The position numbers were made by a program, and so were the translations under genes. From contig NZ_CP128848.1 in the NCBI RefSeq assembly GCF_030388665.1, positions 5,612 to 69,611 of the forward strand: a stretch of DNA of 64,000 nucleotides. Direction: 5' to 3'. The DNA comes from Streptomyces flavofungini (GTDB lineage: Bacteria > Actinomycetota > Actinomycetes > Streptomycetales > Streptomycetaceae). Each line of letters opens with the position of its first letter. Position 1 is the first letter of the stretch. The notes under the pieces were generated by a model. The model was not told the DNA's origin, made no database searches, and saw only the letters and a list, made by a program, of their open reading frames with translations. Positions 19,817 through 64,000 of this stretch are shown here, piece after piece.

Positions 19817-22036
19817 TCAGAGGTCGGATGGCAATCTCTTCCCGGATTTAGCGTCGTAGGCACTTCCGGTGGGGGAAAGGCGAATTTCCTGTGAAGTTGC
19901 CCGGTGACCTTTTTTCCAGGTCTTTCCGCCAACTGCTATCCGGACTGTCACGTCGGCGAGAGGATCCTTGACGGGCACCCTGATTTCGGGGTCCTTAGGG
20001 ACTCGCCCGTCTTCCCGAGTGTTGTAGGCGCTTTTTCCGCTGGCGTCGATGCGCAGATACTTGGCGTCATCGTCGAAGTACGAACTCAGTTGCAGGATCA
20101 CGTGATCCTTGTCCCTGGTCCAACGAGCGGTCAGATCGGCTTCAACGCCATCGATGTCGAGTGCTGCCCCGGACCTGCCTTTGTACGCGGCGGTTTTCTC
20201 CTGGCGTTCCGTTTGCTCCTGGTCGCGTTTGTCGTCGTCGCCGCTCTTCCATACGCCTGCGGCGGCGATGGTCAGGGCTGCGATTGCGGCGACGTAGGGC
20301 CAGGTGCGGCGGCGCGACCGCACGTGCTGTTCGTCGCCGTCCGGGTTCGGTGCGGGTGTGGGTGGTTGGGGCCCGCGGTGCCAGTCCGGTGACGTGTCGA
20401 CGTCGGTCTCGTCGGGCATGCTGTCCCACCATTCGACCTGTTTGCCCATGCGGGTGACGGTAGCGCGTAGCTGTGCCGCGGTGTCGGGGCTTCCGCAGAG
20501 GTCGGCGACCCTGGCGCGGGTGGAGAGCCAGGAGACGGCCTCGTCGGAGTTGATGCCGTAGGTGCGGATGTCTTCCCGCTCGCCGATGACGGCCAGGTCG
20601 GCGGCCTCGTTGCACCGGCCCTGTGCGGCGGCCTGGACGGCGTCGTAGTGCCGGCGGTCGACGACGGTGGAGGGCATCGCCCAGTCCCAGTCGCCGCCGT
20701 GCACACGGGTGTCCTGCTCGATGGGCTCCTGCGCCAGGTCCTCGCCCTGGTCCTCGCCGCCGTCCACTTCTGCCTTGGTCTCCTCCTCCTTCACGAGGGT
20801 CAGGGCTGTGTCGTCGGTGTTCTGTTCGGTCAGGGCCTGCTGTGCCTGGCGTCGCCGTGACGAGGTGTCAGTGAGGCGCGCTTCTTCGTCGTCGAGGACG
20901 GTTTGGACGATGTCGACGTAGTCGGGTCCGACTTTCCATACGGCCTGTCCCGGATCGAGCGTCGGGATTTTCTCGATGGCCCATTGCGGGAGGTTGAGCA
21001 GAGCGCCGACTTTTGCGGCTTCTTTGGGGCCGAGCCGTCCGACGTGGACGATTTCGCAGAGCCTGGCAAGGTCTTTGGCGCGGCCCTCGCCGAGATCGGA
21101 CAGGGTGTGCATGACGACGTCCAGCGACAGCGCGGACCTGCGGCTGTTTTTCAACAGCCTCTGGATCAGTTCGGCTGTGGCCGGGCTGCGGAGGATTTGC
21201 CAGGCCTCTTCGAGGACCAGGTGTCGGTGGCCCGCGGTCGACTGCTTGAGCCAGATGTTTTCGACCCAGCACGAGATTGCGGCCATCAGGGCCGGAATTG
21301 CCGGGCTGTTCTTGTCCAGCTTGGTGAAATCGAAGCTGATCATCGGCAGATCGGTTTCGGGCAGGCCCGCGTTCGGGCCGTCGAAAATTCCGCGCAGACT
21401 GCCGTGCACGTAGCGGGAGAGGGCGAGCGTGACGCGCTGTCCCCATTTGGCCAGCTCCGATGCTGAGTACAGCCCGGCCTCGGGGTGCCTGAGCGCGTCG
21501 ATCAGGCCGCTCAACTCAGAGGCCTTGGGGCTGTTGAGTGCGTGCTGAAGTGCGTGGGCGGCCTCAGAATCGAGGGCCTTGGCATCGACTGCGACGATCA
21601 GCGAGCGGATCAGTTCCTCGCGGACCTCTGGGGTAAACAGGGTGCTGCACGGGTTGAGTGCGAATTCACCCGCCTCAATCACTCTGCCGTCGACCGAGCG
21701 CGTCAGGCGCGCCCACTCTCCCTCTTCGGCCTGGTTCTGCTGTTGTTCTCCGTGGCTGTCGAGAACGACGTACTGATGACCGTGTTCGAGGATCTCGCGA
21801 CGCGCACGGATCTCGCGGCGCGCGCGGATCTTCGCTGTGGTGGACTTTCCCGAGCCGAGCCCGCCCATGGCGAGCGAGTTCGTGGACGGCAGGATCTCGG
21901 AGTCGACCAGGACCGGTGAGAGGTGGAACGGCCGGCCGTCAGAGGTGGAACGGCCGATCGCGATGCCGGGGAACTCAGTGTTCGAGGCGACGAGCGGGGT
22001 GGTGATCGCGGCGTGGTTGGAGGGCAGGCGGATCAC
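19817..22036 (-). CDS. VirB4-like conjugation ATPase fused to a TPR-like region and a membrane-anchored tail
   Basis: GTG at 22036 overlaps the stop of the upstream gene (GTGA), giving 739 residues. Walker A is GGLGSGKST (58-66); a Walker B-type LVLEEAW lies near residue 300, followed by the conserved LKNSRR region, as in VirB4/TraC ATPases of actinomycete conjugative elements. After about residue 430 comes an acidic linker, then a helical segment (RHYDAVQAAAQGRCNEAADLA...) resembling TPR repeats, one membrane helix (579-596) and an outside domain of about 140 residues. The usual VirB4-like ATPase lacks such a tail. It should drive assembly or work of the transfer apparatus at the membrane. 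Confidence 0.75.
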   Translation of the reverse strand: MIRLPSNHAAITTPLVASNTEFPGIAIGRSTSDGRPFHLSPVLVDSEILPSTNSLAMGGLGSGKSTTAKIRARREIRARREILEHGHQYVVLDSHGEQQQNQAEEGEWARLTRSVDGRVIEAGEFALNPCSTLFTPEVREELIRSLIVAVDAKALDSEAAHALQHALNSPKASELSGLIDALRHPEAGLYSASELAKWGQRVTLALSRYVHGSLRGIFDGPNAGLPETDLPMISFDFTKLDKNSPAIPALMAAISCWVENIWLKQSTAGHRHLVLEEAWQILRSPATAELIQRLLKNSRRSALSLDVVMHTLSDLGEGRAKDLARLCEIVHVGRLGPKEAAKVGALLNLPQWAIEKIPTLDPGQAVWKVGPDYVDIVQTVLDDEEARLTDTSSRRRQAQQALTEQNTDDTALTLVKEEETKAEVDGGEDQGEDLAQEPIEQDTRVHGGDWDWAMPSTVVDRRHYDAVQAAAQGRCNEAADLAVIGEREDIRTYGINSDEAVSWLSTRARVADLCGSPDTAAQLRATVTRMGKQVEWWDSMPDETDVDTSPDWHRGPQPPTPAPNPDGDEQHVRSRRRTWPYVAAIAALTIAAAGVWKSGDDDKRDQEQTERQEKTAAYKGRSGAALDIDGVEADLTARWTRDKDHVILQLSSYFDDDAKYLRIDASGKSAYNTREDGRVPKDPEIRVPVKDPLADVTVRIAVGGKTWKKGHRATSQEIRLSPTGSAYDAKSGKRLPSDL

Positions 22037-23133
22037 AGGATCGCTCCCTTTCGGGTGGGTGCGCCGTGCGCGGTGGTCATCACGTGGGCGCGGTGCTGCT
22101 GGCCGATGAGCCAGTCGAGGCGCAGGCGCCGTTCGTCGGCGTCGAGTTGGGCCTTCCAGCGGGCCTGGGTCACGTCCTCGGGGCTCTCCCCCCACACGGT
22201 CAGGTAGGCGTCGATGTCAACGAGGGTGGCGCCGTGGACGAGCGCGTCGTGCATGGTGCCGCTGGACATCGCGTTCTCGTCCTTCTTGACCTTGTCGGTG
22301 GTGAAGGCTTCGCCCGCCGCGGTCGTCCACCGCGCGGAGCGGCGGGCCTGCGCCACGGGCAGGGGCCGGTAGAGCACCGACAGCGAGCGGTTTTTGATCT
22401 GGCGGTCCTTGAGCGGGCGGTCCTGGTCCAACAGCAGATTGGCCATCAGGTCGTCGTCCGTCGTGGCCGGCCAGCCCGTGATCCGGGCCGTGGCCGCGTA
22501 CCGGCCGTCCTCAAGGGCGACCCAGTCGCCCGCGCGGTCGCTGACGGCCGGTACCGGCTCGGGTGTGTGCGGGCGCAGCGCGCCGAGGGCGGCCAACTCC
22601 CGCTCGATGGTGTTCAGGACACGCTCCGGGCGGCTGATCAGGTTCCTGGGGATGTGGACGGAGATCGTCTGGTCGTGGGTGGTGGCGTCGGCGTCGGCCT
22701 GCGCGTGGTGGGTGACGTGGAGCTGGATGCCTGCGCTGCGGGTCTGGTTGCCGATGTAGGTGAGCGCGCGGGAGAACGCGGCGTGGAAACCGGCCCGGTC
22801 GTAGGGGTCCTGCATGGTGCCGTGGTACGGGTACAGGGTCCACGTGCGGGTCTCGCCTGCGGAGGTGCCCAGACGGGGCGTGGCGCGCCGCTCGTGCCAG
22901 TGCCGGACACCGACCGCCGCCCATCGGGCGATCGAGCGGTGCCCGGCCGTGACATTGAGCAGTGCAGCGTTCAGGGCGACCACGCCGAACGCCCAGATCG
23001 GGGGCGTTTCGACCATCGCCGATGCCATAACGGCGCCCCCTGCCCCGGCGTTGACCTTCGTCAGCAGGGTCTCCAGAGGGCTCAGCCCGCGCTGGATGGC
23101 AGGGACGCGATAGCCGGGGGTCAGGGAGTGCAA
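22033..23133 (-). CDS. SCO6880-like conjugation protein (VirB4 N-terminal part / PrgI-associated type)
   Basis: 366 residues; TTG at 23133 is chosen because GGAGGAAG sits eight bases upstream and no better start exists. Two hydrophobic segments near residues 27-70 anchor it in the membrane, and a long soluble part follows. Position directly before the ATPase gene, with overlapping stop and start, matches SCO6880-type proteins that together with a separate ATPase replace a full-length VirB4 in actinomycetes. No nucleotide-binding motif of its own. Substrate contacts unknown. Confidence 0.65.
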   Translation of the reverse strand: MHSLTPGYRVPAIQRGLSPLETLLTKVNAGAGGAVMASAMVETPPIWAFGVVALNAALLNVTAGHRSIARWAAVGVRHWHERRATPRLGTSAGETRTWTLYPYHGTMQDPYDRAGFHAAFSRALTYIGNQTRSAGIQLHVTHHAQADADATTHDQTISVHIPRNLISRPERVLNTIERELAALGALRPHTPEPVPAVSDRAGDWVALEDGRYAATARITGWPATTDDDLMANLLLDQDRPLKDRQIKNRSLSVLYRPLPVAQARRSARWTTAAGEAFTTDKVKKDENAMSSGTMHDALVHGATLVDIDAYLTVWGESPEDVTQARWKAQLDADERRLRLDWLIGQQHRAHVMTTAHGAPTRKGAIL

Positions 23134-23149
23134 CGTCTTCCTCCTTCTT

Positions 23150-24452
23150 CTATGGGGTGCCCGACCCGCCCGAAGGCGAGCCGGAGCCGGATGCCGGTGG
23201 CGTGGGCGTCGGTCGGGGCGGAGCAGCCGGGCTTGCCCCGGAGCTGCCGGACGCGGCCCTGGTCCGGGACGGCGCGTGCTCCGCGCGGGCCTCCCTGCGC
23301 TCGCGCATGACGCGCTCCTGGCGCTGCGCGTCGAACCGAACCTGGGCGACGACCGAATCGGTCGTCATCCGACCCGGGCGTTTGCGGGTCTTGAGCCCGT
23401 ACGCGCTCGCCAGGGCGTCGCCGTCCTGCGCCATGGCACGCCCCGGCGTCATGACGGTGCGCGGGCCGCGCGGGGTGTTCTCCTGCTCGTAGAAGTCCGG
23501 CACACCCGCACGCATCGCACGCTGCGCGAGCGGGCTGGAGACGCGGCCCTCGACCATCGAGCGGGCCGCACGCGCCATGCGGGGCCCGACGTACGGCACC
23601 CCGTGGAAAATCATCCTGAGCATCAGGACATCCGCGGCGACCAGCAACACCGCATCCACCACGAGCGAGCCCTTGGTGAACTCGACGAACGGTGAGAGCA
23701 GGAGCAGGGCGAACGGGGCGAACATCAACCCGAGGAGCCGCGTCGCCCAGGTCCTTGACCGCACCCATGTCGCCGCCACGGGCCAGGGAGGCCAGCACCA
23801 GGGGCGCCATGCACACGAACACCAGGATCCCGAGGTTCCGGGTGAGGAACACCAGCGCCGCGAACGCGAGCGCGACGACCAGGGCCGCAGTGATGATCAG
23901 GATCCCCAGCGGGTTGCCCGCGTCCGCCCCTTTGTCCAAGTCCTCCTTGATGGCGCCGAACAGGGTCGACTCGTTGCTGTCAAACGCCTTCGTGAACGCC
24001 TCCGACAGGGCCGTGTTAAGCAGTGCCACCGCCCCCGGGACGGACGCCATACCGGCGACAGCCGCGAGCGTCCATCCCGTCGACGCGCCCATCTGCCTGA
24101 GGCGGGGCGCGCCCTGCCATGCGGTCAGACCGCACACGACGACCACGCAGAAGAAGATCGACACGGCCAAGTGCTGCCCGAGCCACAGAAACGACTGGTA
24201 GACCGCATTGTCGGGCTCCTGCGGCGCCCAGGCGTCCTTCGGCGCGATGAGCCCCTTGATCGTCTTGATCAGGGTGTTGGCGAGGTCTGTGACGTGATCT
24301 GAGGCGCCGTCAGTGAGCCCACCGCCGCCGCCCCCGCCTCCTCCGCCTCCTCCGCCTCCTCCGCCGTCCTTCTCCCGTTCGCCCTCGCGGCAGAATTCGA
24401 CCGCAGGGCCACGCAGCAGGCCGCAGGGGTCCTTGTCTGCCATAAATGTCAT
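23150..24452 (-). pseudogene. VirB6-like polytopic membrane protein, frameshifted in this copy
   Basis: Compared with the intact copy at 60,991-62,292, this copy has one extra T at 23,752, which breaks the frame in the middle of the membrane domain. The protein (433 residues when intact) starts with a short soluble part, a run of 17 glycines, then about six to seven membrane segments, and ends in a Pro/Ser-rich tail. VirB6-like proteins form the inner-membrane channel of type IV systems. The single-base difference between two otherwise identical copies is most likely a sequencing error. Confidence 0.7.
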
Positions 24453-24458
24453 GGCAGA

Positions 24459-24740
24459 TCAGCTCTGCTTGCCGTTGGTGATGGTCGAGAAAAGGGCGTC
24501 ACCGTAGAGCGCGAGGACCAGGGCGACGAACAGCGTGCCGACGGCCATGCTGCCCTTCCGCAGGGCGCGCTTGGGGTCGTTGGGAAGCGAGAAGAGCATA
24601 ATCACGGCGATCACGGCGATCACGGCAGCGCTTCCCTTGGTGACGAGGCCGCCACCGGTGAGACCGATGGTGTCGAAGAAGTCGGAAAATCCGGTGGACA
24701 GGTCCTGCGGCTTGGCCAGGATGGTGGTGAACTTCGCCAT
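24459..24740 (-). CDS. Small two-span membrane protein, pilin-like, 93 aa
   Basis: ATG at 24740 lies one base after the stop of the wall-hydrolase gene. Two hydrophobic segments (about residues 38-52 and 66-84) are separated by a short basic loop (NDPKRALRK). Size, topology and position before the VirB6-like gene resemble VirB2-type pilins or small channel subunits of conjugation systems, but there is no clear sequence signature. Confidence 0.6.
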   Translation of the reverse strand: MAKFTTILAKPQDLSTGFSDFFDTIGLTGGGLVTKGSAAVIAVIAVIMLFSLPNDPKRALRKGSMAVGTLFVALVLALYGDALFSTITNGKQS

Positions 24741-24741
24741 T

Positions 24742-25752
24742 TCAGATCTCCTTGTTCGCGTTGGGTACGGGACGTGCGACACCGAATTTGTCCGGCATCG
24801 AGTCGATGGCCGAGTAGCGGACCTTCGTGCCCGGCCGGGGCGCATCGATCATGTGCCCACCGCCGACATAGATGCCGACGTGGTGGAGGCTCTCGGCGGA
24901 TTTTCCGTAGAAAATGAGATCGCCGACACGCATCTGTCCAGCCTTTACCGGCTCGGATGCGGCGTATTGCTGTGATGCCGTGCGGGGCAGGGTGATACCG
25001 GCCTGCGCGTAGGCGTAGAGCGTGAGACCGGAGCAGTCGAAACCCTTTATTCCCTTTCCGGAGCGGCCGCGGGGGGAGCAGCACGTTCCCGTGCTCGGTC
25101 CGTTCGCGTCTCCGCCGCCCCATGAATACGGTTTGCCGACCATGTCATTCGCCGCATTCACGGCGGTGACAGCCTGCGTGGTGGTTGCCTTTTTCCCGCC
25201 GGACGACATCTTTCCAACGAGTGAGCCGATGGATTTGACGTAGTTCTGGGTTTCCCTGTACGGGGGGACGCCCCCGTAGTGCACGACGGCCCCGCTTCCC
25301 GCGTTGTAGGCAGCGAGTATGTTGTTCTGCTTGCTGCCCGGGACGTCTTTGACTTCCTTCGCGATTTTGCAGAGATGTACGCCTGCCGAGGGAATCGCGT
25401 CCTTGGGGTCCCAGACATCACGGTCGCCGTCGCCGTCGCCGTCGACAGCATCCTTTTCCCAGGTGGACGGAATGAACTGCGCGATCCCCTGAGCCCCTGC
25501 CGGACTTTTCGCTTTGGGATTGAAACCAGATTCTTGTGTGAGGAGCCCAGCGAGCAGATTTGGGCTGATTTCAGGGCAGGTGTTTCCTGCCTCCTGCACC
25601 AGGTCTTTGTACTTGTCGGGCACGGCCACGGACAAGCCCATCGCCCCCATCGCCTTGCCCGCGGGCGTGTCACCGGCGGCCTGGATGAGCGCGGCCGCGA
25701 TGACGACCACGGTTGACCCCACGCCCACGGCTGCTACGACGCCAGATCTCAA
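24742..25752 (-). CDS. Bifunctional wall hydrolase: lytic transglycosylase + NlpC/P60 peptidase
   Basis: 336 residues; TTG at 25752 follows GGGAGGGGGAAG. An N-terminal membrane anchor (about 6-24) is followed by an SLT domain with the catalytic Glu in QESGFNPKAKS (Glu74) and AQGIAQF, a DGDGDGDRD calcium-loop-like segment (104-112), and an NlpC/P60 domain with the nucleophile in FDCSG (Cys240) and the catalytic His in HHVGIYVG (about 291). It should open peptidoglycan locally for the transfer apparatus, as VirB1-type proteins do. The promoter region upstream holds the clt-like repeat array. Confidence 0.9.
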   Translation of the reverse strand: MRSGVVAAVGVGSTVVVIAAALIQAAGDTPAGKAMGAMGLSVAVPDKYKDLVQEAGNTCPEISPNLLAGLLTQESGFNPKAKSPAGAQGIAQFIPSTWEKDAVDGDGDGDRDVWDPKDAIPSAGVHLCKIAKEVKDVPGSKQNNILAAYNAGSGAVVHYGGVPPYRETQNYVKSIGSLVGKMSSGGKKATTTQAVTAVNAANDMVGKPYSWGGGDANGPSTGTCCSPRGRSGKGIKGFDCSGLTLYAYAQAGITLPRTASQQYAASEPVKAGQMRVGDLIFYGKSAESLHHVGIYVGGGHMIDAPRPGTKVRYSAIDSMPDKFGVARPVPNANKEI

Positions 25753-25795
25753 CGAACTTCCCCCTCCCTGTGTTCTCAGTGTTTTCGCTGGTCAG

Positions 25796-25905
25796 ATCCG
25801 TCAGACGGTTCCGTCGGGGATCCGTCGGGGATCTGTCAGGCCGACGGATGGATCTGTCAGGCCGACGGATCACCGACGGATGCCCTGACGGATGTTCTGA
25901 CGGAT
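25796..25905. repeat. clt-like array of GACGGAT repeats beside the TraB-like gene
   Basis: Ten copies of GACGGAT or its complement (two with ATCTGTC, one with TTCCGTC) occur between 25,796 and 25,905. Starts at 25,820, 25,831, 25,843, 25,852, 25,864, 25,875, 25,887 and 25,899 are spaced about one helical turn apart. It lies between the 3' end of the FtsK/TraB gene and the wall-hydrolase gene, where Streptomyces plasmids usually carry the clt site with 8-bp TRS repeats bound by TraB. Confidence 0.65.
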
Positions 25906-25912
25906 GCTGAGG

Positions 25913-27565
25913 TCAGGCGTTGGCCTGTGCGGCGGCGACCAGCCGTGCGAGGTCGTACCCGCGCCTGGTGCCCTCTTTGTTCGGTGCAGGCTTGATCCCC
26001 AGAAGCGCGGAAACGGCCTTTCCCCGCTGCGTTGCATTCGTCTCCACGACGCCGAGGAACGGAGCGAGTTCAGCGGCAGACATGAACGCGGCACCGTTTT
26101 TCTGCATCACATCGATCGCCTTCACGAGCGGCGTATCCGGCGTCTCCTCCAGCGCCGTTTTGAGCACCTTATGGCGTCGCTCATACACATCGTCGACCAC
26201 CCCGAAGATGAACTCATCATCGAAGCGGATTCCTCGAATGAGCTTCGACGAGACACCGTCGAAGTAGACACCTTGGCCTTGGATACTCGCGTCCATCAGC
26301 GCGGGGTGAATCGGGGATTCGGTCTTGAAATAGTCCGAACCGAGCGCAACCTCCGCGCTCCCCTTACCGGAGACGTAGAGGCAGATTCGCCTCTTAAATT
26401 GATCACGCACTTCGACGGGGACAGCCCTGTCGGATGGGCGCTGCGTCATCATGATGACGGTGATGCCGCATTCGAGGCCCTTGCGGACAAGCTCTGAAGA
26501 GTTCTTCACGAGCCGCGCCCGCTCCTTCTTCGACTCGGCGCTTCCATCGCTGACGTAGTAGTCCGCCACCTCGTCCGCGATGAAAAGCGTCTGCCGGTGA
26601 CGAGGCTTGGGCTTGCGTTCCCGCATAGCCGCGTTGTCCATTTCGTAGCGCTCTTGCTGCTTCTTGAGGAGTTCGCAGACCATCGAGTCGAACACAGATG
26701 TCTTGCTGGACGCTTCATAGCGCACAGCCACCTTCTCGAACCGGACCAGAGCGCCCGGCTTTCCTTCGATGAGGTACACATCGAGTTCAGGACCGTACGC
26801 GATATAGGCGCAGGTGATGAGAGCGATGGTCAGGGTCGATTTACCGGTCTGCGTCATACCCGCTACGAAGAGTGCGCCCTTGGTGAAATCGTCGATGCCG
26901 ACGAGTTCACCGGTCATGCTGTGCGAGAACGGAATTCCCTCGTGCGCGAGAATCATTTCCCTGGTCGGCGGGGCGAACGGCTCGGTGAACGGCGGCCTTG
27001 TCAGCACGGTCATGTCGACGTCGCGTTCGCTGAGTTCACCGCGCTCGACCTGCATCCGCAGCCGGGTTGCGCCCAGGGCACCGGCGACTTCACCGGCCTT
27101 GGTGGCCACGTGCTTGTAGGTACGGCCGAGGGGGACCTTGAACTCGTGCCGGGTGCCGAGTCCGTGGGGCAGCGGTGTCACGACGGACTCGTCCGCGCGA
27201 ACGAACTGGTCCTTCGCGATGGCGCCGCTCGCTACGAGAGCCTTGGTCAGGCCTTCGTCCCGGGCAGGCCCCTCATCCTCAGCGCCTGCCTCCTGCGCCA
27301 GGACGGTCTTGGTGGCTCCCTCCTGGCCCTTGCTGGCCCATGCGCGCTGAATGCGAGTCTTGAGCCACCAGGCGCCGTACCCGAGCGCGACCAGCACTCC
27401 CGCGGTGAGCAGCACCGTGGCAGGCCACGACAGGCCCAACTTGTCCTTGATGGCGGCCAGGCCCCCGAAGCTGATGACCAGAACGCCGATCGCGCCCGCC
27501 ATCTGGCCGTAGGTGTCCTCGCCGCGCTCGTACCGTTCGTCCCGTTCGTGTCTCCTCTTCCCCAC
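25913..27565 (-). CDS. traB: FtsK/SpoIIIE-type DNA translocase, TraB-like conjugation protein
   Basis: 550 residues; GTG at 27565 follows AAGGAGGGGGA. Two membrane helices (about 23-38 and 49-67) are followed by an FtsK-type motor with Walker A GMTQTGKST (236-244) and Walker B TLFIADE (326-332), then a C-terminal winged-helix-like region (AAELAPFLGVVETNATQRGKA) suited to reading the repeat array directly downstream. TraB-type hexamers move double-stranded plasmid DNA between Streptomyces mycelia. The symbol is by role rather than by proven orthology. The start is preceded by a 280-base gap with a promoter-like, less GC-rich segment near 27,600-27,650. Confidence 0.8.
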   Translation of the reverse strand: MGKRRHERDERYERGEDTYGQMAGAIGVLVISFGGLAAIKDKLGLSWPATVLLTAGVLVALGYGAWWLKTRIQRAWASKGQEGATKTVLAQEAGAEDEGPARDEGLTKALVASGAIAKDQFVRADESVVTPLPHGLGTRHEFKVPLGRTYKHVATKAGEVAGALGATRLRMQVERGELSERDVDMTVLTRPPFTEPFAPPTREMILAHEGIPFSHSMTGELVGIDDFTKGALFVAGMTQTGKSTLTIALITCAYIAYGPELDVYLIEGKPGALVRFEKVAVRYEASSKTSVFDSMVCELLKKQQERYEMDNAAMRERKPKPRHRQTLFIADEVADYYVSDGSAESKKERARLVKNSSELVRKGLECGITVIMMTQRPSDRAVPVEVRDQFKRRICLYVSGKGSAEVALGSDYFKTESPIHPALMDASIQGQGVYFDGVSSKLIRGIRFDDEFIFGVVDDVYERRHKVLKTALEETPDTPLVKAIDVMQKNGAAFMSAAELAPFLGVVETNATQRGKAVSALLGIKPAPNKEGTRRGYDLARLVAAAQANA

Positions 27566-27754
27566 TCCCCCTCCTTCTTGCCTGTGAGCGATCAAGAGTT
27601 TGCACAGAGTAACTCGCTTGATGGTTCGAATAGTTCTGGTTTTCACAGTTCAGTCCCGGGTCTGCTCTGCGGGTCTGCGGGCGCGGGGCTCGCTCGCCGT
27701 TCACTCGCCGGTTCTGCACTGCTCGACTGCAACGACTTCCGGCAGTCGCGACAC

Positions 27755-27782
27755 AGCCCACCCAGGCGTTGCTGGGTGGGCT
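27755..27782 (-). terminator. Hairpin after the SpdB-like gene
   Basis: AGCCCACCCAG, loop GCGTTG, CTGGGTGGGCT: 11-bp perfect stem in the 280-base gap between the SpdB-like gene and the TraB-like gene. Confidence 0.7.
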
Positions 27783-27845
27783 GCATCGGTGGTGCCGGAC
27801 TAGTGCCCGTCAGCGGGCCTTCTCCGCCGTCTCCCTGGCGGCCGG

Positions 27846-28931
27846 TCAGACGAGGTCGGTCTCCTCTTCGGTCTCCTCTTCGGTCTCGTCCGACTCGGTC
27901 AGGACCTCTGTGCTCCACACACGGCGCACGCGGTCCTCAGCCCCGACAAAGCCGGAACGGCGAAACAGCTTGACGGCCTGGCGGTAGGAGCGGGGCGGGT
28001 CCTCGGAGTAGCGCAGGTGCCGCAGCACGACCCCGAGCTGAGCGTCCGTCAGCGGCGCGCCCGGCTCCGGGGTCGGCACGCCCCTGACCTCCGCGAGGTC
28101 GGCGAGCGTGACGGCCGTGCCGCGAGACGTGCCGGTCTGCGGTCCCATCAGAGCGCCCACCTGCGTGCCGAGGGCGTGACGGTCCGCGACGGGCAGGGCG
28201 AGCGCGGTCGGCGCCCACCCCTCCAGCTCCGGCAGCGCGATGTACGCGACCGCATCAGGAAGCCGCTTCTCCTCGATCGCCTTCGCGGTGTCCAGCGCCT
28301 GCTTGTGCAGCTGCTCCGTCCTGCGCTGTTCTGCCTTGAGCGTCGCCTTGCGGTAGTCGGTCTCCGCCTCGCCCACCTGCCGTTCGAGCGCTTCCGCGAC
28401 CCGCAACAGCTCGATGCGGTGCGCGGCGTCGGCCTCCATCTGCTCCAGCCGGTCAGCGACTTCCTGACGGCGTGCCGCGATGGCCTTGAGCGTCGCAGGC
28501 GAGACCTTCCGGCCGAGCGAGGGCAGCACGAGCCACCACGCCGTCTTGGTCGCCACGATCGCAAACGGCGCGATGATGACGGCCAGGTCGAAGTCGCCGC
28601 TGGTGCGGTTCAGGACCAGATCCGCGGTGGGGATCGCCGCGATCACCGCCGTCAGCGCGAGGCCCGCCCACTGGACACGCCGAGCGCGCCGAACATTGTT
28701 GGCCGCCAGGATCTCGGTCGCCTGGAGCACCACCCACAGCGCGTCGAGCGCCCCGACGGTCGGCCAGGCCCACACCCCGAAGCGCGGGGTCAGGATCTGG
28801 TAGCTGACGGCGATGGACAGCACCGCCACGCCCACGGTGATCGTGCCGAGGACGCCGAGGACCAGCGTCCGCAGGGACCAGGCCCCGGGCTCTGGAGACC
28901 AGGAACGGGGTTCTCCCTTGCTCTTGAACAT
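27846..28931 (-). CDS. SpdB-like membrane protein (plasmid spread)
   Basis: 361 residues. Four hydrophobic segments lie within residues 22-140, followed by a long coiled-coil-like, Glu/Arg/Gln-rich region (about 140-225) and an acidic C-terminal tail (ETEEETEEETDLV). A location upstream of traB and this topology match SpdB-type proteins that help spread a plasmid within the recipient mycelium. The ribosome binding site GAAGGAGAAGC precedes ATG. The spread role is inferred from family and position. Confidence 0.65.
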   Translation of the reverse strand: MFKSKGEPRSWSPEPGAWSLRTLVLGVLGTITVGVAVLSIAVSYQILTPRFGVWAWPTVGALDALWVVLQATEILAANNVRRARRVQWAGLALTAVIAAIPTADLVLNRTSGDFDLAVIIAPFAIVATKTAWWLVLPSLGRKVSPATLKAIAARRQEVADRLEQMEADAAHRIELLRVAEALERQVGEAETDYRKATLKAEQRRTEQLHKQALDTAKAIEEKRLPDAVAYIALPELEGWAPTALALPVADRHALGTQVGALMGPQTGTSRGTAVTLADLAEVRGVPTPEPGAPLTDAQLGVVLRHLRYSEDPPRSYRQAVKLFRRSGFVGAEDRVRRVWSTEVLTESDETEEETEEETDLV

Positions 28932-28940
28932 GCTTCTCCT

Positions 28941-29183
28941 TCAGGCCGCGAGGGCTACGGGGGAGTCGGCGCACCCCGGGCAGCAGCCCAGGGACGTCGG
29001 GATCACGTGGTTGAAGGTGACCTGGCAGTCCGGACAGGTGCGGCGCGCACGCATCATGGCGTGCACGGCGCGCCACCGTCCCGGCGTCATCGGCCGCACC
29101 GGCGCGGCCAAGCCGTCCGGCGCGAGCCGCTTCGGGTAGGTCGGGATGCCGTACTCGGTCCCGTCCGGGTCGTAGAACCTCAC
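28941..29183 (-). CDS. Small zinc-binding protein of the RRQRL type, shortened
   Basis: 80 residues; GTG overlaps the stop of the previous gene. The N-terminal DPDGTEYGIPTYP and the C-terminal CPDC...PTSLGCCPGC are the two ends of RRQRL-motif zinc-binding proteins found next to tra genes in Streptomyces, but the middle part with the RRQRL motif is absent. The four cysteines should still bind zinc. Function unknown. Confidence 0.6.
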   Translation of the reverse strand: MRFYDPDGTEYGIPTYPKRLAPDGLAAPVRPMTPGRWRAVHAMMRARRTCPDCQVTFNHVIPTSLGCCPGCADSPVALAA

Positions 29184-29437
29184 AGGCCGTCGCCGTCGCC
29201 GTCGACGAGGCGGGACCGGAGGTAGTCGAGCCCCGCCTCGTCGAACCGAATGAAGCTGCGACCGATGCGCCCGTTGTCGCCGTCCTGGGAGTACGCGACG
29301 AGGACCGCGCCCCTCCGGTCGGTCTGCAAGGACATCTTGTAGACGGTGCCGATGATCTGGACGTCCGGGACGTCGAACCGCGGCTCGTCCTCATCCGCCA
29401 TGGGCTCGTTCGGGGTGCGTGCCATGCTGATCTCCAT
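29180..29437 (-). CDS. Unknown small protein in the tra operon, 85 aa
   Basis: ATG at 29437 follows GTGGAGGACCTG and overlaps the stop of the gene before it (TGATG), which favours this start over two nearby ATGs. The product begins MEISMARTPNE, is acidic and ends in a Gly/Asp-rich tail. It contains a likely beta-rich core (VQIIGTVYKMSLQTD). No family recognised; its place in a tightly overlapping operon implies a transfer-linked role. Confidence 0.55.
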   Translation of the reverse strand: MEISMARTPNEPMADEDEPRFDVPDVQIIGTVYKMSLQTDRRGAVLVAYSQDGDNGRIGRSFIRFDEAGLDYLRSRLVDGDGDGL

Positions 29438-29715
29438 CAGGTCCTCCACTCAGGTCCTGGTGGACAGCCCCGGGGGCTCTCCTCCCCAAGGCTGTCGTCG
29501 TGTCGGTGGTGTCGGTGCGCACCGCGCTTTCGGGTGTGCGGGTGGGCGGGGTGGACGTCGACCACCCAGTGGCCGGCCTCCCACGCCGCGGCCGCCGCCA
29601 CAGCGGCGGCCGCCAGGAGAAGCCGGGCACGGGGGTGGTCGGGTCCGAAGACGTGGGCGGCGCGGGCGGCACGGTGCTGCGCTGCCCGCGCCGCCCGTAT
29701 GAGGCGCGCTCTCAC
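29437..29715 (-). CDS. Small Ala/Arg/His-rich membrane protein, 92 aa
   Basis: GTG at 29715 overlaps the previous stop (GTGA) and the gene ends in a TGATG overlap with the next, so start and stop are well supported. A basic N-terminus is followed by one hydrophobic segment (LLLAAAAVAAAAAW) and a His-rich, basic tail. It is a typical small accessory membrane protein of Streptomyces plasmids; function unknown. Confidence 0.5.
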   Translation of the reverse strand: MRARLIRAARAAQHRAARAAHVFGPDHPRARLLLAAAAVAAAAAWEAGHWVVDVHPAHPHTRKRGAHRHHRHDDSLGEESPRGCPPGPEWRT

Positions 29716-30128
29716 CGGCAGATTGCGCGGCAGGCGTCGCAGACGCCCCCGTTCCAGCCCTGGAACCACATGCCGCACGTGCTGCACTGGCCGTCACCGG
29801 ACGCGCGGACCGGCGCCGCCGGGGCGGCCGGGGCGGCGGAAAAGATCTCGTCGCAGCGGCAGCGCCAGAACTCGCACAGTGGGCAGACGTCGTCTGCTCC
29901 CTGCCGGGGCCTGCGGGGCTGCTGACTGCCCGTCATCAGCGGGCGGTGCAGGATGAGCACGGGCTGTCGCACGTGGCCTGGCACCATCTCCTGCAACGTC
30001 CGGCGCGCGCGGCGGCCCGCGGTCGCCGCGCGCCCATCGCCGTCGGCGACCATGCCGAGCAGAAGCTCGTGCAGCTCCTGGACGTCGGTCTCGTCGCGCT
30101 CTACGGCGCGTGTCATGCTGTCGATCAC
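29712..30128 (-). CDS. Zinc-finger-like protein, 138 aa
   Basis: GTG at 30128 follows AGGAGTCCCT. The C-terminal half holds two cysteine clusters (CPLCEFWRCRC and CSTCGMWFQG...CDACR), each able to bind zinc; the N-terminal half is helical and charged. It is the first gene of the four-gene overlapping operon that leads to the SpdB-like gene. A strong hairpin lies in its 5' leader. Function unknown. Confidence 0.6.
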   Translation of the reverse strand: MIDSMTRAVERDETDVQELHELLLGMVADGDGRAATAGRRARRTLQEMVPGHVRQPVLILHRPLMTGSQQPRRPRQGADDVCPLCEFWRCRCDEIFSAAPAAPAAPVRASGDGQCSTCGMWFQGWNGGVCDACRAICR

Positions 30129-30154
30129 AGGGACTCCTAGTCAGTTCCTGTACA

Positions 30155-30187
30155 GGCGGCCCCGGAGCTATCACCTCCGGGGCCGCC
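30155..30187. terminator. Strong hairpin in the leader of the tra-side operon
   Basis: GGCGGCCCCGGAG, loop CTATCAC, CTCCGGGGCCGCC: 13-bp GC stem. It separates the tRNA-like segment from the operon and could end transcription from it. A second stem, GCCGCCAAC/GTTGGCGGC (30221-30255), lies just beyond. Confidence 0.6.
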
Positions 30188-30287
30188 GCCTTGTCGCTGC
30201 TCGGACGAGCAGCCGCGGCCGCCGCCAACCTGCCGTGCACCACGGAGTTGGCGGCGACTGCGGCGGCTGGTCAGCCGCAAAAGGGGG

Positions 30288-30326
30288 TGCCCCGGACCGG
30301 ACTCGAACCGGTCGACTGCTGCCTAC
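30288..30326 (-). other. tRNA 3'-half-like segment, possible attachment-site remnant
   Basis: On the minus strand the sequence reads like the end of a tRNA gene: GGCAGCAG, a T-arm ACCGG-TTCGAGT-CCGGT and an acceptor strand CCGGGGCA. A matching 5' half with a foldable anticodon arm is not found upstream. Such tRNA ends are the usual attP core of integrating actinomycete elements, yet no integrase gene is in the plasmid. The surrounding 600 bases (30,129-30,729) hold no other gene I can support. Confidence 0.55.
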
Positions 30327-30654
30327 GGGGCCCGCGATCTTCGCCCTTGTCTCACCTGTGCGCATCGGTCCCTGTCCACCCGAAAGGGGGCATGGGAGAA
30401 GGTGCGTGCTGCCACGCACAGGCAGGGCCTACGGCTTGTCGCTGTTGCCTGATCCCGGGTGGCCAGAGGACTCGCCGTGGTGGCACCTCTCCGCAGATCT
30501 CTTGCTCGGAGGTGCCGACGAGTCGTGGCTCCGGGTGTCCATGTGGAGTTGAGAAGGAACGAACACTCCGTCCGGGCCGCCATGACGCGCTGCCATCAGG
30601 GCGCTTTGACCTGCGGGTTAGCTGGCTTGCTGGCTAGTCAGCCAACCGACCATC

Positions 30655-30689
30655 TGTTTCCATGGTGCCAGATTTATTTCCTGGAAACA
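30655..30689. promoter_or_regulatory. Inverted-repeat operator upstream of a small HTH gene
   Basis: TGTTTCCA (30655-30662) and TGGAAACA (30682-30689) form an 8-bp inverted repeat with centres 27 bases apart, about 40 bases upstream of the HTH gene at 30,730. Likely its autoregulatory site. Confidence 0.5.
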
Positions 30690-30729
30690 ACCAGAGGACC
30701 CAGGGTCTGCCTCCTGGTATCGTCTCCGT

Positions 30730-30981
30730 ATGGTTGAGCTTCCGGAGGAGCAGCGCGCCGCTGCGCTGAGACAGGTAGCCGAGATCGGCACACGCCGCAC
30801 AGGGCTGCTCGCCGAGGCCGAGCAACTGAACGGCCCGCTGCGGGCGGCGGCTGTCGAGGCGGCACGCGTCGGCGCGCAGCGGAGTCGTATCCGGGAACTC
30901 GCCGGGGTCAGCTCCAAGACCTTGTACGGCTGGCTCGAAGAGGCTGGCCTTGAAGTACGCACCACGCGAAAGAGCCGCTGA
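30730..30981 (+). CDS. Small helix-turn-helix protein, 83 aa
   Basis: ATG at 30730. The N-terminal half is a long charged helix (EEQRAAALRQVAEIG...); the C-terminal half carries a helix-turn-helix (RIRELAGVSSKTLYGWLEEAG). It resembles small DNA-binding proteins that sit between tra and rep regions of Streptomyces plasmids. No clear ribosome binding site: a leaderless transcript is possible, since the start lies close to promoter-like sequence. Confidence 0.6.
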   Translation: MVELPEEQRAAALRQVAEIGTRRTGLLAEAEQLNGPLRAAAVEAARVGAQRSRIRELAGVSSKTLYGWLEEAGLEVRTTRKSR

Positions 30982-31073
30982 CCCCCACGCTCCGACCTGC
31001 CCGTGACAGCCACGCAAGCCACCCCGTTCCGTCTGCCGGTTGGGCAACCAACCTGACAACCGGAGGGGTGATC

Positions 31074-31107
31074 TTGACAGTGACTCTTCAAGGGGACCTT
31101 TGAAGGT
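31074..31107 (+). promoter_or_regulatory. Putative promoter/operator of the Xre regulator gene
   Basis: TTGACA at 31074-31079 is followed by a near-perfect inverted repeat TGACTCTTCAAGG / CCTTTGAAGGTCA and then by ACCCATGGGT. The -10 element is weak. The repeats suggest an autoregulatory operator over the promoter. Confidence 0.45.
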
Positions 31108-31179
31108 CACCCATGGGTGTCACCTGCCGCGGAGCGCTCTCGCTGTCACACTCGGCCCCAGTTTCCGGAGGTGATCACC

Positions 31180-32412
31180 ATGGACGACCGGCCCACCTGG
31201 GCACGTCGGATGCGCGAGGAACGGCTTGCCCGCCAGTGGTCTCAGATCACGGCGGTCCGCTCCCTGATGGCCCGGCTCCCGTACGACCCTGGAGGGCCGG
31301 ACGAGCAGAGCATGCTGCGGCAGTGGAAGCGCTGGGAGGCCGGAGAGAAGTTCCCGGAGAAGTACAAGATCGAGATCGCGGCCACCTTCGGGACGACCAC
31401 GAACGCCTTTTTCCCGCCGACCGGCCGCGAGCCCCGCTCTCAACTTCAGGTCGTGGGCGGCGTGGACACAGTGGAGATCGTGGCCCGCATGAGGGCCTCA
31501 GACGTCGACCAGGCCACCCTGGACGCGCTGCGGATCACCGTGGACCGGCTCTGCTCCGAGTACGCCTACCTGCCCACGGCGCAGCTCCTCACGGAGGGGC
31601 GGGCGTGGATGAGCCGGGTTGTGGCGATGCTCGACCGGCGGGTGAGCCTGTCCCAGATGCGCGACCTGTACGCGCTCGCCGGGAAGTTGGCGCTCCTGGT
31701 CGGCTGTGTCGAGTACGACTCGGGCGATCCCCGCCAGGCCGAAGCGACCCGTCGCGCCGCGCTCTCCCTCGGGGACGAGGCCGGCCACCTCGGCGTGATC
31801 GGGTGGGGCCATGAGATGCGGTGCTGGTTCTCGCTGACGCGCGGCGACTACCGCGGCGTCATCCAGGCCGCCCGCGAAGGAGTCGCGCTCGCCCCGAACG
31901 AGTCGGTGGCAGCCCAGCTCTTCGCCCAAGAGGCCAAGGCATGGGCGCGGCTGGGCGATCGGCAGCAGACGGAAATCGCGCTCGACAAGGGCCGCCAGGT
32001 CCTCGAAGCCCTGCCCTACCCGGACAACATCGAGGACCACTTCGTCGTCGACCCCGCGAAGTACGACTTCTACCGCATGGACTGCTACCGCAAGGTCGGT
32101 GAAGACCAACTCGCCGAGCAGCTTGCGGGTGAGGTCATCCGGGCGAGCACCGACTTCGACGGCACGGAGCGCGCGCCCATGCGGATCGCAGAGGCCCGCA
32201 TCACGCTCGCCGTCGCAGCAGCCCGCAGCGGAGACCTCGACTCCGCCCTGTCCTACGGCGAACGCGCCCTCGGCGGCGAACGCCAGTCCCTCCCCAGCCT
32301 GACCATGGTCGCCAGCGACCTCGGCCAGATCCTCAAGACCAACTACGCCAAGGTCCCCGACGCAGTGGACTTTCGCGCCCACCTGCGGAACCTCAACACT
32401 CCTGACCACTGA
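31180..32412 (+). CDS. Xre-type regulator with TPR-like C-terminal domain
   Basis: ATG at 31180 (GGAGGTG eight bases upstream) gives 410 residues. An N-terminal DNA-binding domain contains a diverged Xre helix-turn-helix (WARRMREERLARQWSQITAV...WKRWEAGEKFPEKY), followed by many helical repeats resembling the TPR-type sensory domains of Streptomyces Xre regulators. It lies between the transfer and replication blocks and reads toward rep1, so it may control either. The 380 bases after it (32,413-32,794) are non-coding and contain an imperfect hairpin near 32,525-32,550. Confidence 0.75.
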   Translation: MDDRPTWARRMREERLARQWSQITAVRSLMARLPYDPGGPDEQSMLRQWKRWEAGEKFPEKYKIEIAATFGTTTNAFFPPTGREPRSQLQVVGGVDTVEIVARMRASDVDQATLDALRITVDRLCSEYAYLPTAQLLTEGRAWMSRVVAMLDRRVSLSQMRDLYALAGKLALLVGCVEYDSGDPRQAEATRRAALSLGDEAGHLGVIGWGHEMRCWFSLTRGDYRGVIQAAREGVALAPNESVAAQLFAQEAKAWARLGDRQQTEIALDKGRQVLEALPYPDNIEDHFVVDPAKYDFYRMDCYRKVGEDQLAEQLAGEVIRASTDFDGTERAPMRIAEARITLAVAAARSGDLDSALSYGERALGGERQSLPSLTMVASDLGQILKTNYAKVPDAVDFRAHLRNLNTPDH

Positions 32413-32794
32413 CGAGGTGAAGAGCGCATGCCCCCTATGCATGGAGAGAACCCGCAGGTCACTGCGGGAACGCACGGAGAGTCACAAGGGGAGTACGCTG
32501 ACTCCCAGTAATACGTGATCTAGAAAAACCGAACCCCCCGGTTCCGGCTGGAGCAGGTGCGTCAACACCTACTTGAACCCAGCCCCGGGGGGCCCACACG
32601 CTGCCGAGTGTAGAGCAGGCGAGGACGGATTTCGATCCGAGTCTCGGCCTTTCACACCCGGTCAGCGGCTACGAGAGGCCGCAACAGGTGCTACAGAATG
32701 CCCCCGCACCCACATTCAGTCGGGCCATCGAGGGGCCCGAGACAGCCGTGCCGCACTCATCGGACGCCGTCCGTTCCGCTCCCGAGGTGGACCG

Positions 32795-33900
32795 ATGACG
32801 AGACCGCAGCAGATGAGCGAGACGTGGGTTCGGGCGATCGAGCCCGAGCCGAGTGTGACGATCACCGAGGAAACGTTCTTCGGGCACGGCTGGCAGCCGC
32901 TGACGATCGCCGTGGTACAGGCCCTGTGGTTCATGCCGCCCGGCGAGGACTTCGACGTCGCCGAACTGGTGGGCTGGTTCCGCGCGATGGGCTGGAAGTC
33001 CGCGAACGGCAAGCCGCTCGGCGAGGACGCCGTACGGCGTGAGCTCGCTCTGATCCGCAAGGCCGGATACATCCGCGCGTACCGGATCAAGGGCGAGGGC
33101 GGCCGGATGGTCGGGATGCGTTACGAGATCTCGAAGCGTCCGAAGCCTCCCCAGGAGCGGATCGAGGTCGTCTCTGCCGAGCAGGTAAACACGCAGGTCG
33201 CGCCATGTGCCTCCAATGAAGGCACATGGAATGGGGGTAAAAGGGAAACCCGCAGGTCGCACCATGTGCCTCCAATCACCACACATGGTGAACCGCCACA
33301 CATGGTGGATGCGGCAAACCCGCAGGTCGCACCATGTGCCTCCAATGGCGGTTCCCCCCCACACCCCCCCCGGAGGTGGTGGATACCACCTCCCCCAACC
33401 CCCTCACCGGCACCGAGGGTCACAGCGACCCCGCTTCGCGGGGGGAGGCGGCGGAAGCCGAGTTCGACGCAGGGGCTATCGCGGACGCGGAGGAGTTCCT
33501 TCAGGAGCTGCCCGCGCCGTTCGCGGTCGGCCGTCCGACGGCGAAGCGATACGCCCCACTGCTCGTGGACAGCACCACGGCCCAGGGGTGGAAGCTCGAT
33601 GACGCCCTGGTCGCTGAACTGACCAAGGGCCAGCGGCCGAACAACCCGCAGGGCGCGCTCAAGACGCGGATTGAGAACCTGGTCCGCCGCCATCGCGCGG
33701 CCGCCACCGCCACCGTGCCCGGCCAGGTCCGGCAACTCCGGCAGTCCGGCGCCGAGTTGCCGCCGCACTGTGGTGATCTGGACTGTGACGAGCTCACCCG
33801 GATGAAGACCACGGAGAACGAGGAGGGGTGGCGCACCACTGCGCCATGCGCCGATTGCCACCCCGGCAAGGTCCGGAAGTCCGCAGCCGCCGGAACCTGA
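32795..33900 (+). CDS. Rep1-like replication protein with internal origin; frame changes at a C-run
   Basis: ATG at 32795 follows GAGGTGG. The N-terminal ~130 residues contain a winged-helix-like region (DFDVAELVGWFRAMGW...VRRELALIRKAGYIRAYRI). The frame continues through three iterons and into two C-runs (C7 at 33,354-33,360; C8 at 33,364-33,371). After them the gene clearly continues in the -1 frame to TGA at 33900, with good codon usage (EFLQELPAPFAVGRPTAKRY... and a CxDC...CADCH zinc-like end). Joined product: about 368 residues. A Rep1-like gene with iterons inside it and a DnaB-like gene downstream is the layout of the pSLA2-type origin. The shift may be an error or true slippage. Confidence 0.7.
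33192..33346. repeat. Origin iterons inside the Rep1-like gene
   Basis: Three near-identical 26-mers, CGCAGGTCGC followed by RCCATGTGCCTCCAAT, start at 33,192, 33,251 and 33,321. Between them lie inverted CACATGG/CCATGTG elements (33,277-33,310). This is a typical iteron array and the best candidate for the internal origin of bidirectional replication. Confidence 0.75.
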
Positions 33901-34091
33901 TCCGGAGATCGCAGACGGCCCTGTGGCGGCCCAAGCGATCACCGGATGTCCGGAAGGCCCGAGGGCCCCTCGTCGGCGCGCTCGGGGGCGCTCAGGCCCC
34001 TCTGTGGGCCCTCTGAACATGACGGCGGCGGCCGGGAATCCTCGCCAGGGTCCGGCCGCCGCTCGAAACTCCCCGAACAGGAGCTCTACGC

Positions 34092-35480
34092 GTGAGCATC
34101 GCAGAACTTCCCGACACCGCAGAGACCGACGACGCCGGGTTCAACCGGGTCCCGCCGAACGACACCGGAGCCGAACAAGCCGTCCTCGGCGCAATGCTGG
34201 TGCCCTCCCCCGCCACGGCTACGCAGGTCGTCGACGAGGTCTCCTCGATCCTGCGCGGCCCGGAGGACTTCTACCGCCCCGCGCACGAAACGATCTACCG
34301 GGCCATCCTCGACATGTACGCCACCAGCATCGGCAAGCCGCGAATCGACCCGATCACGGTTGCCGCCGAGCTCACCAAACGCGGTGAGCTCACCAAGGTC
34401 GGGGGCGCCTCGTATCTGCACACTCTGGTGCAGACGGTGCCTACGGCGGCGAACGGCGCATACTATGCCGAAATTGTCCGCGGGCGCGCCGCGCTGCGGC
34501 AGGTCATCGAGGCCGGTACCCGCATGGTGGCGCAGGCGTACGCGCAGACCGAGGACGCCGACCAGATCGTTCAGGACGCCATGGCCCAGGTGCAAGCGGC
34601 CGCGACCGGCACCGTCGAGGCCGCGCCGCCGCTGTCGGTCGCCGACCGCTGGCAGGGCTTCGTCGACGAGCTCCAGGACGGCGCCGACCCCAACGCGCTC
34701 GACACCCCGTGGCCCGACCTGAACGACGTGATCCAACTCAAGCCCGGCCAGTTGGTCACCGTGGGCGCCGCGACGGCAGGCGGCAAGTCGCTGTTCGGCA
34801 TGAACCTCGTCGCTCACGCCGCGCTCAAGCACGGCAAGCCTGCGATGGTCGCCAGCATGGAAATGAGCGGCAGTGAGCTGATGGCCCGGCTCACCGCTGC
34901 CGAAGCCGGGGTCAACCTCGACAGCCTCGTCCGACGCAAGGTCACCGACCGGGACTGGGAGCGCATCCGCAAAATCAGCGAACGCCTCGCCACCGCCCAC
35001 CACTTCGTCCTGGACGACAGCGCGAACCTCTCGCTGTCGAAGATCCGCGCACGGATGCGCTGGATGACCGCACGCGGCCACGCCCCCGCGATCGTCGTCG
35101 CCGACTACCTGCAACTCATGACTCCCGAGGGCACCAACAAGAACTCCAACCGTGCGCAGGAAGTCGCCGACATCAGCCGCGGCCTCAAGCTCCTCGCTGT
35201 GGAGTTCCAGGTGCCCGTCGTCGCCCTCGCCCAGTTCAACCGCGGCGCCGTCGGCCGCCGCCCGCTCGTCTCGGACTTCAAGGAGTCCAGCGCCATCGAG
35301 CAGGACTCCAACATCATCGTGCTGCTCCACCGGGAACTCGCCGAGGACGGCACCGACACCGGCCCCACGTCGGGCACGGTCGAGGCCATCGTGGCGAAGA
35401 ACAGGAACGGAGCCAGCGGCCGGATCGTAGAACTGGCCTTCCAAGGTCACCTGGCGCGGCTGTCCTCCATGGGCTGTTGA
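34092..35480 (+). CDS. DnaB-like replicative helicase (Rep2-type)
   Basis: 462 residues; GTG at 34092 after CAGGAG. The N-terminal DnaB domain (GAEQAVLGAMLVPS...FYRPAHETIYRAI) is followed by the RecA-like motor: Walker A in AATAGGKS (the usual P-loop Gly-x-Gly is changed to an Ala/Gly-rich form), a Walker B-type IVVADYLQLM, and AQFNRG / DFKESSAIEQD of DnaB motif 4 and neighbours. Length and motifs are complete. It unwinds DNA at the origin recognised by Rep1. In pSLA2-type linear plasmids the second replication gene is of this kind. Confidence 0.85.
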   Translation: MSIAELPDTAETDDAGFNRVPPNDTGAEQAVLGAMLVPSPATATQVVDEVSSILRGPEDFYRPAHETIYRAILDMYATSIGKPRIDPITVAAELTKRGELTKVGGASYLHTLVQTVPTAANGAYYAEIVRGRAALRQVIEAGTRMVAQAYAQTEDADQIVQDAMAQVQAAATGTVEAAPPLSVADRWQGFVDELQDGADPNALDTPWPDLNDVIQLKPGQLVTVGAATAGGKSLFGMNLVAHAALKHGKPAMVASMEMSGSELMARLTAAEAGVNLDSLVRRKVTDRDWERIRKISERLATAHHFVLDDSANLSLSKIRARMRWMTARGHAPAIVVADYLQLMTPEGTNKNSNRAQEVADISRGLKLLAVEFQVPVVALAQFNRGAVGRRPLVSDFKESSAIEQDSNIIVLLHRELAEDGTDTGPTSGTVEAIVAKNRNGASGRIVELAFQGHLARLSSMGC

Positions 35481-35516
35481 CCTGACCCGGTGAAATAGCA
35501 GGTCAAGTGATCGATG

Positions 35517-35560
35517 CCGTCACAACGGCATGACGGTATGACGTCGTGCCGTTGTGACGG
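35517..35560. repeat. Centromere-like site A (TGACGG repeats)
   Basis: A 14-bp perfect inverted repeat, CCGTCACAACGGCA and its complement, flanks TGACGGTATGACGTCG. It shares TGACGGYA units with four other sites on the plasmid and sits between the converging helicase and Xre genes. Confidence 0.6.
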
Positions 35561-35580
35561 TGGCTCGGTACTGAGGGCTG

Positions 35581-37970: not shown

Positions 37971-37988
37971 GCGGTAGAGTCCCGGGCC

Positions 37989-63409: not shown

Positions 63410-64000
63410 TCCGCCTGCCCTCCAACCACGCCGCGATCACCACCCCGCTCGTCGCCTCGAACACTGAGTTCCCCGGCATCGCGATCGGCCGTTCCACCTC
63501 TGACGGCCGGCCGTTCCACCTCTCACCGGTCCTGGTCGACTCCGAGATCCTGCCGTCCACGAACTCGCTCGCCATGGGCGGGCTCGGCTCGGGAAAGTCC
63601 ACCACAGCGAAGATCCGCGCGCGCCGCGAGATCCGTGCGCGTCGCGAGATCCTCGAACACGGTCATCAGTACGTCGTTCTCGACAGCCACGGAGAACAAC
63701 AGCAGAACCAGGCCGAAGAGGGAGAGTGGGCGCGCCTGACGCGCTCGGTCGACGGCAGAGTGATTGAGGCGGGTGAATTCGCACTCAACCCGTGCAGCAC
63801 CCTGTTTACCCCAGAGGTCCGCGAGGAACTGATCCGCTCGCTGATCGTCGCAGTCGATGCCAAGGCCCTCGATTCTGAGGCCGCCCACGCACTTCAGCAC
63901 GCACTCAACAGCCCCAGAACCTCTGAGTTGAGCGGCCTGATCGACGCGCTCAGGCACCCCGAGGCCGGGCTGTACTCAGCATCGGAGCTGGCCAAATGGG
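63406..64000 (+). CDS. VirB4-like ATPase, right copy, cut by the window end
   Basis: Inverted copy of the N-terminal ~198 codons of the gene at 19,817-22,036, including Walker A. Codons 171-172 read Arg-Thr here (63,917-63,919 changed) against Lys-Ala in the left copy. Confidence 0.75.
   Translation, partial: MIRLPSNHAAITTPLVASNTEFPGIAIGRSTSDGRPFHLSPVLVDSEILPSTNSLAMGGLGSGKSTTAKIRARREIRARREILEHGHQYVVLDSHGEQQQNQAEEGEWARLTRSVDGRVIEAGEFALNPCSTLFTPEVREELIRSLIVAVDAKALDSEAAHALQHALNSPRTSELSGLIDALRHPEAGLYSASELAKW

Follow-up and report, generated by a model that had tools for sequence, protein, structure and literature searches.

A stretch of 64,000 nucleotides from Streptomyces flavofungini (contig NZ_CP128848.1, positions 5,612 to 69,611; hereafter the window) carries a linear plasmid of which some 21 kb is repeated in reverse orientation about a small hairpin. 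This inverted duplication is very likely the fold-back product of one ordinary telomere, retained by the assembler in a chimeric contig, and the doubling is very probably an error of assembly, with no novel type of molecule behind it. The fold-back reading is supported because the hairpin sits at the exact centre of the palindrome and related replicons end at that hairpin. It is further supported because the mirror arm has no end other than that of the contig, the contig is chimeric, and the plasmid unit has the size of its single-unit relatives. Coordinates are collected in Table 1.

Table 1. Features located in the window, in window coordinates, with the basis for each
Feature	Position	Strand	Basis or remark
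Left arm of inverted duplication	21442..42720	+	Alignment of arms
Right (mirror) arm, stopped by contig end	42724..64000	-	Alignment of arms; contig end
Terminal hairpin, 6-bp stem, GCA loop, palindrome centre	42715..42729		Folding; related records and contigs stop in or near the hairpin
Right telomeric region common to other Streptomyces linear plasmids	42403..42729		NZ_CP134204 (both ends) 85% identical; NZ_CP109436 (left end) 82% over 42415-42714
Single plasmid unit	18065..42729		24,665 bp, ~528 bp of left end missing; relatives 24,983 and 24,462 bp
Remnant of left terminal inverted repeat	18066..18355		Inverted match to bases 529-844 counted from the right telomere; strongest over 134 bp (82%)
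Clostridium DNA	1..18064		25-30% G+C in 2-kb windows; matches to metagenome-assembled genomes (MAGs)
Chimeric joint, Clostridium DNA to plasmid	18064..18065		MAG match ends at 18064; terminal-repeat similarity from 18066
Second chimeric joint, probable, between two Clostridium loci	11319..11322		MAG contig jump; fused open reading frame (ORF)
FtsK/SpoIIIE-type protein, probably plasmid transfer	25913..27646	-	Family match
DnaB-like helicase	34092..35480	+	Family match
ParA-type partition ATPase	37902..38783	+	Family match
553-amino-acid protein, candidate telomere-associated partner	39262..40923	+	50% identical chromosomal paralogue
199-amino-acid protein, candidate terminal protein	40923..41522	+	Relatives tend to lie near replicon ends

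Geometry of the palindrome and the telomere at its centre

The assembly comprises four contigs with 9,362,490 bases, and the window corresponds to positions 5612-69611 of contig C3 (69,611 bases). Read backwards from 64000 to 42724, 21,277 bases of the right arm align with the left arm, a match far beyond chance, broken by three adjacent mismatches and a pair of one-base gaps. Comparison of the window with itself by megablast (E up to 1e-5) returned the same inverted match and otherwise repeats of 31-44 bases only. A first-pass annotation of this DNA had described at least 21.3 kb repeated in inverted orientation about position 42,722 with three small differences, and a centre formed by a hairpin with a three-base loop instead of a random breakpoint. 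The alignment of the arms bears out the former and the computed fold the latter: stem 42715-42720, loop GCA at 42721-42723 and stem 42724-42729 form a perfect 6-bp hairpin.

Differences between the arms are confined to three sites. At the first, the adjacent mismatches at 21523-21525 (63917-63919 in the mirror), the left arm is matched by both of the two relatives compared. At the second, a single T at 23752 is missing near 61690; here the same two relatives match the right arm, and the left copy is frameshifted. At the third, one C of a C-run at 42655 is missing near 42788, and the left arm agrees with the plasmid records NZ_CP134204 and NZ_CP109436, the remaining related ends differing from both arms. 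Going by these comparisons, each arm carries errors, and these have the look of consensus errors instead of divergence between two real copies. How far the right arm extends depends on the contig, because window position 64000 is the last base of C3 and no natural arm end occurs in the data. For 18000-21600, the assembly contains just one further long, near-identical copy of any portion (98%), namely the final 159 bases of the contig.

Judged against its relatives, the centre at 42715-42729 is the tip of a telomere, because related linear records and contigs end at this hairpin. A search of plasmid records in distant mode with the 622 bases that precede the centre gave six records, all from Streptomyces, all linear and all matching at the record end. 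Four of the six stop within the hairpin; NZ_CP109436 begins just short of it, and NZ_CP134204 holds the full 15-base hairpin 9 bases from both of its ends, inside a 461-bp terminal inverted repeat that is 99.1% identical. No mirror arm is present in these six records or in two other Streptomyces contigs, the sequence stopping in the hairpin or at most 9 bases from it. Among 392 genomes of the genus, the telomere motif was found in three, the present one and two others that both carry it less than 20 bases from a contig end, and the mirrored centre was found in the present genome only. One of the two other motif-bearing contigs (in G199) and the record NZ_CP108520 may come from one strain.

Beyond the terminal hairpin, NZ_CP134204 (at both ends) and contig G329:C29 (at its start) carry 9 and 7 extra bases, respectively, which are G+C only and not mirrored and could be either the true tip or an artefact. 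In the plasmid of the window, the last 150 bases of the right end contain several hairpins, as expected for protein-capped ends. Terminal inverted repeats together with palindromes packed at the ends, by which a protein-capped linear plasmid is recognised, are both present, the repeat being imperfect and the left end truncated. The earlier suggestion that the centre fits a linear-plasmid telomere with fold-back is supported, since the relatives end at the hairpin and a fold-back with a three-base loop accounts for the exact centre.

The plasmid unit and its joint with Clostridium DNA

Counted once, and with the roughly 0.5 kb lost at its left end restored, the unit is most likely a complete linear plasmid of ~25.2 kb, comparable to the single-unit records NZ_CP134204 (24,983 bp) and NZ_CP109436 (24,462 bp). 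A unit of about 25 kb, the smaller of the two sizes named in the first-pass annotation, is supported.

G+C content in 2-kb windows is 25-30% in the first 18 kb of the window and 62-72% in the remainder. For a ribonucleotide reductase encoded in the A+T-rich part, the closest relatives are from Clostridium, and the top one, in a MAG, shares 97% protein identity; the best 80 of 291 loci are mostly Clostridium, with Peptoniphilus, Parvimonas and other Firmicutes lower down. DNA identity to that MAG is 92.8% over 11319-18064, and past 18064 the MAG continues with a different sequence, which by eye was judged to resemble the start of rpsD. On the strength of these matches, the contig is a chimera of Clostridium DNA and a Streptomyces plasmid. 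That the plasmid acquired the A+T-rich DNA by horizontal transfer was considered and rejected, as the MAG runs past the joint into sequence of its own and the terminal repeat of the plasmid is cut at the same point. Neither the chimera nor the ending of the right arm with the contig had appeared in the first-pass annotation.

A second joint probably lies at 11319-11322, where both of the two Clostridium MAGs searched switch contig with a 4-base overlap and where a spanning ORF joins a LysR-type N-terminus to a response-regulator C-terminus. It is less certain than the joint at 18064 because the MAGs might not match the contaminating strain at this place. Clostridium DNA also occurs upstream of the window, in C3:1-5611, of which the first 917 bases match neither Clostridium MAG well. 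These 917 bases gave distant matches only: unannotated records of Listeria phage and Bacteriophage, and records of Listeria and Monoglobus in which a PFL-family gene is annotated. Escherichia coli, considered as the origin of the contig's first 2.5 kb, gave no match in near-identity mode.

Origin of the inverted duplication

The 3' strand of the plasmid, ending in a hairpin with a 6-bp stem and a GCA loop, would be able to prime its own copying. The end could fold back and be extended, by end repair or by a polymerase, or could be sealed and read through, in either case giving a closed or palindromic molecule. A library molecule or long read would then go up one strand to the tip and return along the other, and the assembler would take the palindrome into the contig until the data stop at window position 64000. 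We infer both the enzymatic step and the placing of the fold-back in library preparation or sequencing instead of in the cell. At the level of the contig, the second half falls on the same place as the first, on the opposite strand and with one turning point, as in long-read fold-back artefacts. Also in favour of this origin are the apparent consensus errors on both arms, the mirrored tails past the hairpin at three other Streptomyces contig ends, and the inverted copies round a short loop in the assembly of the enterococcal plasmid pELF1 (PMC6863802). Fold-back reads are reported to make up approximately 0.55-0.6% of nanopore genomic DNA (PMC12870357).

Several considerations weigh against this origin. 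No fold-back of more than 150 bp was found at either end of the chromosome (contig C1, with a 14.0-kb terminal repeat; 20 kb examined per end), and a mirror arm of 21 kb could come only from fold-back reads that are long or from more than one such read. Virtually no fold-back reads occur in the PacBio HiFi data treated in the same report (PMC12870357), and the authors who described pELF1 interpret their palindrome as a natural hairpin end (PMC6863802).

Archetypal Streptomyces telomeres were searched by motif in the same 392 genomes. Mirrored bases past the hairpin of such a telomere were found in two genomes at four places (G078:C380, G078:C331, G078:C385 and G321:C113), three of which are contig ends with 9, 14 and 16 base pairs outward from the loop. 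If the natural archetypal tip is a 5-bp stem, 4, 9 and 11 mirrored bases lie past it. At the fourth place, inside G078:C380, two different telomeres meet head to head, their arms measuring ~280 bp and being 78% alike. Short fold-back tails at Streptomyces ends are therefore recurrent but rare among these 392 assemblies, counted irrespective of whether an assembly reaches an archetypal telomere. A search of the open-access literature with limited terms found no published account of telomere fold-back in Streptomyces assemblies. Contig C4 (17.5 kb) of the present assembly starts with a sequence resembling that just inside the telomere of G321:C113. From this start, the strain may hold more than one class of telomere; six classes have been described (PMC8743542).

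Self-priming of the 3' overhang on the GCA-loop hairpin might have taken place in the cell, part of the plasmid pool being closed-ended or head-to-head dimers, although this is unlikely. If true, such self-priming would be a fallback replication route for occasions when terminal-protein capping fails, and it would also have left the mirrored tails at telomeric contig ends of G078 and G321. Fold-back in the cell would then bear on how protein-capped ends survive after failed capping.

Improbable, too, is a true head-to-head dimer in the cell, which would arise if the 3' overhang annealed to itself and was extended to a hairpin cap, the next replication giving a linear palindrome of ~50 kb with the left telomere at both ends. 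The hairpin does lie exactly at the centre, and a published case of intra-strand annealing giving palindromes in Streptomyces is cited (Qin and Cohen 2000); however, the contig does not extend to a second left end and is demonstrably chimeric, the relatives are single units, and no sequence feature demands a dimer. The mirror arm stops, with the contig, at the mirror of 21442, short of a second left end, and an incomplete contig would look alike. As nothing found favours a dimer over a fold-back product, this option of the first-pass annotation gained no ground.

A palindrome round a short loop is likewise what would be expected if the sequencer had read through a natural, covalently closed hairpin end, as at the left end of pELF1 (PMC6863802). 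Such an end has little probability here. No telomere resolvase of the ResT/TelK type (PF16684) was found in the assembly, in a search that would miss a resolvase of another family and whose control, with one match among 14 control genomes (Synechococcus elongatus), says little on sensitivity. The non-mirrored bases past the hairpin in NZ_CP134204 and G329:C29 suggest open ends, and the multiple hairpins of the region are those expected of protein-capped ends. A pure assembly join, in which two correct contigs or read piles ending in the self-complementary hairpin overlapped head to head with no fold-back molecule, could yield a joint of two different telomeres through the terminal hairpin as in G078:C380, but is highly improbable for the window, where the same 21-kb arm would have to be laid out twice, the right-end read pile is one locus and the arms differ at three sites only.

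With the fold-back product of an ordinary telomere as the preferred origin, the linear replicon's own terminal hairpin very probably gave rise to a large false inverted duplication, in a contig that has Clostridium DNA as well and belongs to an assembly with ratings of 100% for completeness and 0.4% for contamination. Such fold-backs can mislead tallies of terminal repeats, of gene copies or of horizontal transfer taken from Streptomyces assemblies. Worth keeping from the contig are the GCA-loop telomere and the candidate terminal-protein gene pair that adjoins it.

Plasmid genes and comparison with known systems

The 199-amino-acid protein is a candidate terminal protein for GCA-loop telomeres, as the position of its relatives suggests. 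Among the 60 rows listed of 147 plasmid records matched, 13 of the first 15 lie within 5 kb of a record end and further rows are mixed (distances worked out by hand). The chromosome encodes a paralogue (42% identity) at a distance of 274 bp from its right end; at the left end, the mirror copy of this paralogue is split into two frames. In the relatives whose annotation was inspected, the gene stands directly 3' of that of a larger protein, for which the annotation gives either acyltransferase or helix-turn-helix protein. The chromosomal paralogue of the 553-amino-acid protein (50% identity) is at C1:8771918, away from the chromosome tip, and the plasmid protein itself has a BetR match of 21.4 bits, just below the cut-off of 21.6. 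Neither protein matched an NCBIfam family at E <= 0.01. The 199-amino-acid protein has a match (E = 0.014 over 76 residues) to a 184-amino-acid protein of SLP2, which is annotated 'transcriptional regulator' and which, by its size, we take to be Tpg. With no NCBIfam family and a match at that E value, its identification as a known terminal protein was not borne out.

GCA loops are described for the telomeres of Streptomyces griseus 13350, and S. griseus uses the GtpB-GtpA pair; the same source has a GCA-loop plasmid telomere of S. griseus co-occurring with an atypical Tap-Tpg operon (PMC7205883). The pair at 39262-41522 is a candidate of the same functional kind as GtpB-GtpA or Tap-Tpg, without assignment to a named family.

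Two 34-base direct repeats (97%) at 33243-33276 and 33313-33346, mirrored at 52097-52130 and 52167-52200, lie within an ORF at 32573-33622 just before the gene for the DnaB-like helicase and are possibly replication iterons. A phage origin of the plasmid unit was also considered; no match was found in the phage collection, which was searched in near-identity mode only.

Among known systems, NZ_CP134204 and NZ_CP109436 share with the window the type of telomere, a similar size and a gene pair like that at 39262-41522. They differ in being recorded as single units, and little nucleotide similarity to the unit in the window was found beyond the telomeres and the gene pair. Streptomyces palindromes formed by intra-strand annealing reportedly came from plasmids whose telomere was damaged or absent, whereas the turning point here is an intact telomere and the palindrome is seen in an assembly. 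The proposed step, a 3' end folding on itself, is common to both (Qin and Cohen 2000).

Long-read fold-back artefacts, as described in PMC12870357, resemble the contig in that the sequence turns at one point and its latter half repeats the former as reverse complement, with no adapter-like insert between the halves; unlike them, the contig turns at a natural telomere hairpin, and the palindrome is seen in a contig instead of a read. The left end of pELF1 has inverted copies of ~5 kb round a 4-base loop, supported by long reads (PMC6863802). There as here, a linear plasmid has at one end long inverted copies that meet in a short loop, and nanopore reads were used in the pELF1 assembly (PMC6863802); the Streptomyces plasmid is set apart by its 3-base loop, its openly ending relatives and the chimeric contig in which it was found.

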